From contig NZ_JACJPX010000002.1 of assembly GCF_014696315.1 (NCBI RefSeq), positions 186,001 through 250,000 on the forward strand: 64,000 nt of DNA. Reading direction: 5' to 3'. How positions within the stretch are numbered: position 1 is the first letter of the stretch; each line of letters begins with the position of its first letter. This document shows positions 2,921-45,165 of this stretch, one piece after another. Both the position numbers and the translations under genes were made by a program. The DNA comes from Calothrix membranacea FACHB-236 (GTDB lineage Bacteria > Cyanobacteriota > Cyanobacteriia > Cyanobacteriales > Nostocaceae). The notes beneath the pieces were generated by a model, which made no database searches, had not been told where the DNA came from, and was given only the letters and a program-made list of their open reading frames with translations.

Positions 2921-3595
2921 TTAGGAATTGGCTTGCTGCCACATAGTATCCACAGTCACAAATTCATAACCTTGTTGTAATAATTGGGGAATCAAAATTT
3001 GGATTGTAGCAGCAACATCTTGACCGCCATCATAACCATCATGCAAGACAATCAGCGAGCCGTTTTGTACTTGCTCTAGAACGCGTTGCACTACGGTATT
3101 AACGCCAGGTCTCACCCAATCTTCTGGGACAACACTCCACATAACTGGGCGATAATTCCACTGAAAAAATAATTTTAAAGTTTGCGGTGTAAAAAAACCA
3201 TTGGGAGGCCGAACATCCCTGACTTGTTCGGGTGGGAGATTGCACGCACTATAAATAGCAGCTTGGGTTTTAGCCAAACTTTCTCTCAGGGCCGTTGGGG
3301 ATAGCATGGGGAAAGAACGATGATCGTACCCATGCAATCCAATCCAGTGTCCGCGATCGCATACTGCTTTAGCTATCTGTGGTGAACGATTGACACAAGC
3401 ACCTAACCAAAAAAAACTCGCTGGAATCTGATAACGGTCTAAAACTGCCAATACTTCGGGTGTGTATTGGGGATGAGGCCCGTCATCAAACGTGAGTGCG
3501 ATCGCTTTGCGTTTGCGATCGCCATTCCACAAACATTTAGGAAATGTCGGTTGCAGAAGGCGATAGATAATCGGAAACAAGGGAGCAAATTGCAT
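2921..3595 (-). CDS. Polysaccharide deacetylase (NodB homology domain)
   Basis: Carbohydrate esterase family 4 enzyme of 224 residues that would remove N- or O-acetyl groups from a polysaccharide or peptidoglycan. The NodB motifs are in order: TFDDGP at residues 35-40 (catalytic and metal Asp), HGYDH at 88-92 (the two metal His), RPPNGFF near 129-135, and a late LIVLHDG with the catalytic His. The length suits a bare catalytic domain. The first 20 residues are mildly hydrophobic but lack a clear signal peptide. It is monocistronic and converges on the XRE gene. The exact substrate is not determinable. Confidence 0.88.
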   Translation of the reverse strand: MQFAPLFPIIYRLLQPTFPKCLWNGDRKRKAIALTFDDGPHPQYTPEVLAVLDRYQIPASFFWLGACVNRSPQIAKAVCDRGHWIGLHGYDHRSFPMLSPTALRESLAKTQAAIYSACNLPPEQVRDVRPPNGFFTPQTLKLFFQWNYRPVMWSVVPEDWVRPGVNTVVQRVLEQVQNGSLIVLHDGYDGGQDVAATIQILIPQLLQQGYEFVTVDTMWQQANS

Positions 3596-4293: not shown

Positions 4294-4530
4294 TTAAACG
4301 GCAGGATGAACATTTTTGTAGGATTCTATCAGTTCTCTACGCCCACTACCGCGATGCGGTACAGGCTTTTCTGGCTGGTTAGGCTTGGGCTTGGGTCTGG
4401 CTGAGAGCAACTGTTCTGAGCCAGATGAGGATGGTAACAAATGCGAAAATTGATTGATCGTAGCTTGACAGTTGATAGCTAGGGAAACAGCTACCAAACT
4501 GGAGGCTAAAAGTGAAACTACAGCACGCAT
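4294..4530 (-). CDS. patX: PatX: secreted RGSGR-peptide inhibitor of HetR
   Basis: Small protein of 78 residues. The N-terminus (about residues 3-20, VVSLLASSLVAVSLAI) is a hydrophobic signal-like segment. A Pro/Lys-rich middle is followed by HRGSGRR, with the pentapeptide RGSGR at residues 60-64 and 14 residues after it. RGSGR is the peptide that binds the HetR hood domain in PatS, HetN and PatX. A hydrophobic N-terminus plus a C-proximal HRGSGR is the described PatX pattern, whereas PatS is much shorter. A TCCGGA motif 57 bases upstream and an NtcA-like site beyond it match the published patX promoter layout. The predicted role is a processed, cell-to-cell signal that suppresses heterocyst formation in neighbouring cells. 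hetR lies 9.7 kb away. Confidence 0.88.
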   Translation of the reverse strand: MRAVVSLLASSLVAVSLAINCQATINQFSHLLPSSSGSEQLLSARPKPKPNQPEKPVPHRGSGRRELIESYKNVHPAV

Positions 4531-4587
4531 AGCAGATGTTTATTTTAGAACTCTCTTATTCCCTCCTACTTAGTTTTTATTACTGCA

Positions 4588-4593
4588 TCCGGA
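4588..4593 (-). promoter_or_regulatory. DIF1-type motif TCCGGA at the -35 position of patX
   Basis: TCCGGA lies 57 bases upstream of the patX ATG on the coding strand. DIF1 (TCCGGA centred near -35) marks promoters induced in developing heterocysts, and is reported within 69 nt upstream of patX genes. A transcript would start near 4556. A convincing -10 is not obvious (TAAGTA or TAGGAG at about 4572-4563). Confidence 0.65.
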
Positions 4594-4607
4594 CAAATCC
4601 CTAAAAC

Positions 4608-4621
4608 GTGTTTTTTTTTAC
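4608..4621 (-). promoter_or_regulatory. NtcA-like binding site upstream of patX
   Basis: On the patX strand the sequence is GTA-N8-CAC, one base from the NtcA consensus GTA-N8-TAC. Its centre is 24 bp upstream of the DIF1 motif, so it falls near -59 of the inferred start, the usual place for a class-I activator. The spacer is a run of A, so chance similarity is possible. Confidence 0.45.
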
Positions 4622-4640: not shown

Positions 4641-6407
4641 TTAAATAACAAGATGTTCTACGAGTAACCAATTACCAGCCGAGTTCAACCGACCCCAAAC
4701 TGTCACCAATTGCTCATGGGAGCAAGCTTTTAGTTGTTCATCAACGTACGATCGCACGGTTACAAGCTGCCAAATCTGCTTTTGATGCGTTGTTGGTGTC
4801 ATGATGCTGAATCTGTAATCTTGCTGATGTAAGCGATGAAATACACCTGTATAGCAATTACTCAACCGTGATAATACTGGATTTGCAAACTCGTAATTAC
4901 ACGTAGATGATATTAAGCCAGGACAGTTACCATCAAGCGGATAGCTGGCAGGATTGTTGAGATAATTTATTTGCGACCGTATCCACTGAGGATCAGCAAG
5001 TGTTGAATTGAACAATGGAATAATTGCCGCAGGCGATCGCTTGTCTTCTAATAAAGCCATTTGTAGCGCCCTCACTGGTAAATCCCGCGGTTGACAGTTC
5101 AACTCAATGCACATAGCCGCAGCCATTCCCGCAGCTTGACCAATACCCATCACCACAGGTTGCAATCGAGTTGCGCCATTAGCAATATGGGAAACAGAAA
5201 TATTCTTTTCGCAGACTAAAAAGCCGTCTATAGTTGCAGGAATCAGGCTGCTATAGGGAATTGTGAAGGGTGTCCCCGTCCAGCGTCCTCCCCAACGAAT
5301 CGATTTAGGTTGCAGGGGAAAGTTAAAGCCTGGGTAATGGTGGTCGTTGGCATAGTTAGCGATCGCGATTGCATCTATATTTAATGATGCAACCTGACCC
5401 CCAGGCACAGGTAAGATATTCTGTTCGGTAATCGTTGTCATTCCCACCAAGCGCCGACTTTCGCGGTAATAGGGATGCAAAGCAAAAGCTGTGGGTGAAT
5501 GGGGAAATACCTGTGCAGCTAAACCATAGCGCCTACCAACCTGATTTTGGATGTAATGGGCAAAATTTTGACTATGCCAGCGAGATTCTTGAATATATTC
5601 ATCTCTGCTTGCTTTTGACTCTATTAGCCGCCCTAAACCTTCGCCATAGTCATTACCGCATATAGGCCAATTGAGCATCAATAGACCCCCTGGTAAGCGC
5701 CCATAATGCAAAAATTGTTCTGCACCATAACCATCCCAAGCACCTGCAAATTTAGATGGATCGTAATTTGGCCCTGGGGGAATTTCTGGGGCGATATCTG
5801 TACCAAAATCTTGCATTAGCACCACCCCAGTTGGCGCTTGTACAGGGTATTTTTCCGTGAGAGAATTAGGAGATTCTGGGGCGCTAGGTTCTTCCCATTG
5901 CGATCGCCATTCCCAACCCCAACGAAAAGGTATTTCAGCCAAAGCTAATAAATCGCCTAATTCTGTACCATCGAGAGTAATTTTGGCTTTAACAATAAAA
6001 TTGCTAAAGCGAACCCCAGTTATACAACTTCCTTCGCGAAACACCTCTAAGGGAACTTCTCCCCCAATCCAATGCAGATTTGCCAACTCCGCCACCCAAT
6101 CCGCAAAAATCTGCGCCCCAACTCGCGGATCGAAACTAAAAAAGCTTACCCAGCTGTGATCCAAACCTTCTGGTTGACGTTGCTGTAATTCTCGTAAAAA
6201 CTCACCCCACAACCCTGTCTGAAAAGCTTCTAATTCATTGCCATCAGGGACAGATACCCCAGCAGAGGTTAACATTCCCCCCAACCAGGCAAACTCACTC
6301 ACCAGGATAGTTTTTGCCCCACGTCGCGCCGCCTGAATCGCTGCAGCTGTACCGCCTACTCCACCACCCACAACTAAAACATCAGCTTGATATATCTGAT
6401 TCAGCAT
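4641..6407 (-). CDS. FAD-dependent oxidoreductase (FAD_oxidored family)
   Basis: 588 residues. The N-terminal dinucleotide-binding fold (VLVVGGGVGGTAAAIQAARRG, acidic partner after the second strand) is followed by LGGMLTSAG, typical of FAD-dependent proteins of the FAD_oxidored family. A later FAD-contact region reads NGATRLQPVVMGIGQAAGMAA. The last ~120 residues are a less conserved C-terminal extension. No partner enzyme is next to it, so the substrate is unknown. Its stop lies about 110 bp upstream of the patX start on the same strand, with the patX promoter motifs just beyond its 3' end. Confidence 0.85.
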   Translation of the reverse strand: MLNQIYQADVLVVGGGVGGTAAAIQAARRGAKTILVSEFAWLGGMLTSAGVSVPDGNELEAFQTGLWGEFLRELQQRQPEGLDHSWVSFFSFDPRVGAQIFADWVAELANLHWIGGEVPLEVFREGSCITGVRFSNFIVKAKITLDGTELGDLLALAEIPFRWGWEWRSQWEEPSAPESPNSLTEKYPVQAPTGVVLMQDFGTDIAPEIPPGPNYDPSKFAGAWDGYGAEQFLHYGRLPGGLLMLNWPICGNDYGEGLGRLIESKASRDEYIQESRWHSQNFAHYIQNQVGRRYGLAAQVFPHSPTAFALHPYYRESRRLVGMTTITEQNILPVPGGQVASLNIDAIAIANYANDHHYPGFNFPLQPKSIRWGGRWTGTPFTIPYSSLIPATIDGFLVCEKNISVSHIANGATRLQPVVMGIGQAAGMAAAMCIELNCQPRDLPVRALQMALLEDKRSPAAIIPLFNSTLADPQWIRSQINYLNNPASYPLDGNCPGLISSTCNYEFANPVLSRLSNCYTGVFHRLHQQDYRFSIMTPTTHQKQIWQLVTVRSYVDEQLKACSHEQLVTVWGRLNSAGNWLLVEHLVI

Positions 6408-12998: not shown

Positions 12999-15087
<2,089 letters not shown>

Positions 15088-45093: not shown

Positions 45094-45165
45094 AGCCGAT
45101 GACGGGATTTGAACCCGTGGCCTGCTGATTACGAATCAGCTGCTCTACCACTGAGCCACATCGGC
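45094..45165 (-). tRNA. trnT-CGU: tRNA-Thr (anticodon CGU)
   Basis: A 72-nt cloverleaf: acceptor GCCGATG/CATCGGC, D-arm with GCTC-AGTGGTA-GAGC, anticodon stem GCTGA/TCAGC around loop TTCGTAA (anticodon CGT, reading ACG threonine codons), and T-arm with GGGTTCAAATCCC. The discriminator base is T. CCA is not encoded. It lies 34 bases upstream of the divergent DUF3493 gene. Confidence 0.95.

Follow-up and report, generated by a model that had tools for sequence, protein, structure and literature searches.

Filamentous cyanobacteria carry a small gene, patX, whose short peptide product restrains the differentiation switch HetR. As reportedly set out by Elhai and Khudyakov in 2018, the PatX class comprises small hydrophobic proteins with an RGSGR motif whose genes have a DIF1 motif and an NtcA site, and the NtcA-binding site is said to lie upstream of DIF1 in heterocyst formers. 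HetN is a full-size short-chain-reductase-like protein with an internal RGSGR. PMC7761841 and PMC7377430 largely restate the description of the PatX class, and the former also gives HetN as a protein with this internal motif. In Nostoc/Anabaena PCC 7120, according to PMC12756182, PMC7377430 and PMC7761841, PatX is a small precursor with an export signal and an internal RGTGR, transcribed from a hetZ-dependent DIF1 promoter; PatP is reported to process it (PMC12756182), and HRGTGR binds HetR at 88 nM. The same sources report that the peptide binds HetR directly and that hetL suppresses PatX (PMC12756182), and that patX, patS and hetR all have DIF1 promoters in this strain (PMC7377430). PatS, likewise a source of RGSGR that inhibits HetR, is a short peptide ending in this motif, with 17 aa in PCC 7120 (PMC12756182).

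Identity of the patX gene

The window, by which we mean the whole 64-kb stretch of DNA analyzed, contains a 78-aa open reading frame (Table 1) that the initial annotation had read as PatX on account of its hydrophobic N-terminus, an HRGSGRR near the C-terminus and 14 residues beyond RGSGR, all of which are present. The assignment is borne out by the NCBIfam equivalog NF047413 ‘heterocyst-inhibiting protein PatX’, which aligns with residues 1–66 at 89.2 bits (E 2.2e-25), far above its curated cut-off of 30 bits. The protein has the PatX layout, with signal-peptide-like residues at about 1–23, a variable middle, HRGSGR at residues 59–64 (HRGSGRR at 59–65) and the 14-residue tail. Its N-terminus, MRAVVSLLASSLVAVSLAINCQA, is hydrophobic and signal-like by eye, and NF047413 aligned from profile position 1. 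The remark that such genes lack a domain model held for Pfam, which gave 0 families at E 0.001, but not for NCBIfam, where a model exists. The lack of any Pfam family rules out HetN, and PatS is ruled out by length and the 14-residue tail, a separate patS candidate being present in the genome.

Table 1. Features of the patX locus and related loci (window positions unless a contig or locus is named)
Feature	Position	Strand	Basis or remark
patX	4294..4530	minus	78 aa, ATG start; ORF reading and NF047413 match
Inferred 5' leader of patX	4531..4556	minus	primary sequence conserved across the family; putative start
DIF1 motif TCCGGA	4588..4593	minus	palindrome; inferred -35 element
NtcA-like site GTA-N8-CAC	4608..4621	minus	one mismatch to GTA-N8-TAC
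hetR, target of the PatX peptide	14188-15087	plus	299-aa ORF; PF03574, 263.6 bits
Own patS candidate MLINSSDERGSGR	G000:C79:2171-2194 (L085, L202)		separate from patX
Model-missed HRGSGR ORFs near hetR	L168 (G060), L169 (G185), L171 (G008), L183 (G289)		

A profile search of its own genome with NF047413 gave no second PatX copy (three further matches had E 1.33 to 2.2), and patX is single-copy there. The closest named relatives found were the PatX proteins of Nostoc carneum NIES-2107 (99% identity) and N. linckia FACHB-104 (97%). Sequence comparison shows that orthologues keep the N-terminus and RG(S/T)GR, and mostly the tail. An RGSGR context missing from syntenic orthologues had been named as grounds for doubt; RGSGR was found in 45 of the 46 orthologues compared, syntenic ones included, and RGTGR in the remaining one. 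The G191 protein, with 76 aa, has RGTGR. By the curated equivalog model, the 78-aa ORF is an ordinary, intact PatX orthologue, a further member of a type already published. It resembles PatX of PCC 7120 as a small precursor with an internal H-RG(S/T)GR and a DIF1 promoter, and is predicted to share its export and its inhibition of HetR; it differs in having RGSGR instead of RGTGR and in the mismatch in its NtcA site. Genes for a polysaccharide deacetylase (2921-3595) and an FAD-dependent oxidoreductase (4641-6407) flank patX on the same strand. An Rfam search over the window found a tRNA at 45094-45165 only.

DIF1 and NtcA-like sites at patX, patS and hetR

TCCGGA begins 63 nt before the patX ATG, leaving the 57 nt between them (4531-4587) that the initial annotation had counted, and its center at 4590.5 is 24 bp from that of the NtcA-like site, read from 4621 to 4608 with its center at 4614.5. 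The proposed -59/-35 layout also holds arithmetically, as placing DIF1 at -35 would set the start near 4556 and the NtcA-like site near -59. The window has 7 copies of TCCGGA against a mean of 7.30 over 100 shuffles and is thus not enriched, so the hexamer alone proves nothing and the evidence lies in its position among relatives. We compared 48 loci and counted 46, namely the window, 38 same-family loci drawn with NF047413 and 7 named loci; L014 and L041 were left out for misassigned start codons, although their sequence has the same DIF1 spacing, and L048, L065, L073 and L075, which are distant or second copies, lie outside the tabulated loci.

All 46 loci have DIF1 in the same place, starting 63 nt before the ATG in 43, 62 nt in two and 66 nt in one, and in the eight genomes of the window’s genus it is at 62–63 nt without exception. 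A GT-N10-AC core is found at the expected place upstream in 44 of the 46, with the full GTA-N8-TAC in 32; the two loci without it (L034 and L038, both genus g6) keep DIF1. The genomes of these two loci are about 4 Mb, with hetR 0.37–1.1 Mb from patX. Among more distant loci (27 ORF readings at 25 loci, one of which, L072, takes an incorrect internal codon as its start), exact TCCGGA is found within 110 nt in 6 of the 27 readings, and TCCGGA with at most one mismatch at 50–75 nt in 21, compared with 2.1 in shuffles; the inexact form is TCCTGA in 11 of 15 cases. The fixed DIF1 spacing seen when these relatives are compared is not chance, and the spacing of DIF1 and the NtcA-like site at this gene agrees with that of the PatX class.

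The two partner genes differ from patX in this respect. Candidate patS genes (DERGSGR followed by a stop codon) were identified in 19 of the 32 genomes searched, including all eight of the window’s genus. The candidate in the own genome lacks an exact DIF1 over 2.1 kb of upstream sequence, and none of the eight has exact TCCGGA in the upstream DNA examined (1.5 kb for seven, 329 nt for G403), compared with nine of 11 genomes outside the genus. Five of the eight are without even a one-mismatch DIF1 within 800 nt, with such sites present in G399, G401 and G403. In G382, a DIF1 precedes the DERGSGR codons of patS by 661 nt. For hetR, upstream regions could be compared in the 26 of 28 genomes with a recognized start (G382 and G305 left out). 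Exact DIF1 is within 400 nt in five of these, all of genus g2, and 682–1428 nt upstream in four other genomes; the window’s genus has none in any of eight (979–1341 nt examined), and the window itself has no TCCGGA between 9652 and 14187, that is, before hetR. One-mismatch sites do exist upstream of hetR, such as TACGGA at 212, shared by four members of the window’s genus, and may be functional. The upstream sequences suggest that DIF1 control of hetR as in PCC 7120 is not general. Of patX, patS and hetR, only patX has a clear exact DIF1 in the upstream DNA examined for the window’s genus, unlike PCC 7120, where all three are reported to have one.

The promoter also varies within the genus. 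The CAC for TAC half-site and an altered -10 region are common to five of the eight members (the window’s own genome G000, G400, G401, G402 and G405), but G399, G403 and G404 have the common form, with GTA-N8-TAC and the usual -10 region. Being common to five genomes, the mismatch is a clade feature, and because both elements are unlike those of most relatives, the patX promoter could be reduced in strength or in its dependence on nitrogen. The promoter may thus have drifted in a five-species clade in which this PatX orthologue is just a back-up, redundant or in decay, to patS, which the own genome does contain. We consider this unlikely, since the ORF, HRGSGR, DIF1 and the tail are intact and the PatX proteins are nearly identical across the five species; in addition, patS of the genus, with its lack of exact DIF1, is not an obvious replacement for patX. 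An intact PatX serving under its own DIF1 promoter is the reading we prefer.

Leader conservation, processing and linkage to hetR

Conservation at patX extends into the leader. We collected hetR from 40 genomes, recognized its start in 37 and used the 35 in which both genes were readable for comparison. Mean pairwise identity in these genomes is 0.825 over the 26 nt that precede the patX ATG, whereas the hetR leader reaches 0.501 and hetR four-fold sites 0.472 (0.58 in the best 20-codon block). Four-fold sites of patX itself have 0.788 in codons 2–10, 0.678 in codons 11–20 and 0.587 near RGSGR. Where hetR four-fold identity falls below 0.4 (152 pairs), the patX leader still has 0.781 and the stretch from -120 to -102 only 0.314. 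The patX leader is therefore conserved beyond neutral sites. Structured RNA as the cause was rejected: when 33 distinct sequences (of the 35) were folded together and scored against 100 column shuffles, no stable consensus fold appeared in any of four stretches, with -50..+66 reaching -1.5 kcal/mol (13/100 shuffles as good) and shuffles equally good in 31/100 for -26..+66, 67/100 for -26..+40 and 16/100 for -50..+10. The conservation thus looks to be in primary sequence. The window’s own -26..+66 folds at -21.7 kcal/mol, a single-sequence value without shuffle comparison. Because the conservation of codons 2–20 could stem in part from codon choice for the signal peptide or for initiation, any role at the RNA level is a putative one, and we met no report in the literature of post-transcriptional control at the patX leader, such as small-RNA pairing.

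At the other end of the gene, 14 residues follow RGSGR in 26 of the 46 loci, five in 10 and 3–19 in the other 10; several PatX copies in other families stop at RGSGR, some with ERGSGR as in PatS. A tail of 14 residues is the most frequent form, which makes its removal, or processing on both sides of the peptide, a question for PatX in general. PMC12756182 reports two peptides flanking the active one, of which one is GPDIIFWAHDR. This sequence is found within maltose-binding protein, the fusion partner (a 33-residue piece containing the peptide matches MBP chains), so the site of C-terminal cleavage in the native PatX tail cannot be read from it.

Two loci elsewhere have a different arrangement. 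A 338-aa ORF with 17 RGSGR copies (L118, G398:C95:52997-53263, minus; 26.1 bits, below the cut-off of 30) and a 201-aa ORF with 11 copies (L107/L072, G229:C156:26003-26221, plus; 34.1 bits) each carry RGSGR units in tandem behind a signal-like N-terminus, with no TCCGGA in the 300 nt upstream of either one. A hetR gene is present in G398, and G229 gave no match to hetR. By their repeat structure, these ORFs resemble a polyprotein precursor of the inhibitor, a form possibly new to the literature, as a search of titles and abstract openings found none for a PatX-type inhibitor.

In the window, hetR is about 10 kb from patX and divergently oriented. Among 42 patX copies in the window’s family, 23 are within 20 kb of hetR, 10 farther away on the same contig and nine on other contigs; the corresponding numbers for 35 copies in other families are 14, nine and 12 (both counts leave out three weak rows, and G229 is without a hetR match). 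In the other families, 13 of the 14 close copies are within 3.3 kb, all upstream of hetR on the same strand. A literature search found no paper with patX–hetR synteny as its topic, though PMC11298460 describes patX directly upstream of hetR in one strain, Leptolyngbya BL0902. At L068 (G336:C102) and L074 (G039:C35), a tandem pair of patX genes lies immediately upstream of hetR, and each of these genomes has a third copy on another contig that ends in PERGSGR at the stop codon (L049 and L046).

Across 386 genomes, 62 have a PatX match, 59 of them with hetR; G171 and G367, which have a PatX match but no hetR match, score below the PatX cut-off. Conversely, 59 of the 80 hetR-bearing genomes have a PatX match and 21 have none at E 0.001. 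Raising E to 10 gave nothing above the cut-off in these 21, a threshold at which unrelated control genomes also match (12/14). Of 30 loci from these genomes, four carry a small ORF with HRGSGR where the match lies, close to hetR (Table 1), and G118 has a short ORF ending in HRGSGR with DIF1 61 nt upstream that NF047413 missed. As such ORFs occur in at least five of these genomes (G008, G060, G185, G289 and G118), the model misses distant members and the figure of 21 overstates absence. In G382 and G334, both of the window’s family, there is no small RG(S/T)GR ORF in about 19 kb upstream or up to 1 kb downstream of hetR, and the profile model search found no PatX match elsewhere in the genome.

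Proposed action of PatX and its place in the genus

Our analysis itself gives the sequence, family membership, promoter layout, conservation and hetR linkage, and the remaining steps are carried over from PCC 7120. After nitrogen step-down, patX would be turned on in prospective heterocysts by NtcA together with the HetZ-dependent DIF1 system, with transcription starting near 4556. Its product would be exported by its Sec-type signal peptide and cleaved in the periplasm, by PatP in PCC 7120, to free an HRGSGR-type peptide that would bind HetR, stop it from binding DNA and so limit differentiation. We hold this account as a whole, a patX orthologue in a host close to N. carneum acting by these steps, to be very probably correct. 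Weighing against it are the hetR-bearing genomes without a PatX match (21/80) and the altered NtcA half-site and -10 region. Further points against it are that patX inactivation in PCC 7120 is described in PMC7761841 as giving no discernible phenotype in nitrogen-depleted medium, and that PatX effects in the non-heterocystous Leptolyngbya BL0902 appear mostly HetR-independent in PMC11298460.

The Leptolyngbya transcriptomes, together with the PatX-like gene of G229 in a genome without a hetR match, would fit a PatX that works mainly through something other than inhibition of HetR, for instance as a regulator in its own right. Given the direct peptide–HetR binding and the effect of hetL reported in PCC 7120, and the linkage of hetR to patX here, we regard such a route as very improbable. 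That the RGSGR ORF and the nearby TCCGGA coincide by chance in an intergenic region is refuted by conservation and hardly deserves credence: the hexamer is at chance frequency in the window and two other genome matches of one RGSGR codon pattern look like chance, but the NF047413 E-value, the orthologues with fixed promoter spacing and the single genome match argue against it.

Returning to PatX as a HetR inhibitor, we tentatively propose an extension for the window’s genus, possible though doubtful, in which DIF1 is absent from hetR and patS and kept only at patX, PatX would be the main early cell-specific inhibitor of HetR, and its leader and first codons would add post-transcriptional control such as small-RNA pairing. 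The locus provides a clean, hetR-linked PatX orthologue from a lineage in which only patX among the three core genes has a visible exact DIF1. The relatives of N. carneum are thereby a natural test of whether PatX can fill the role that PatS has in PCC 7120.
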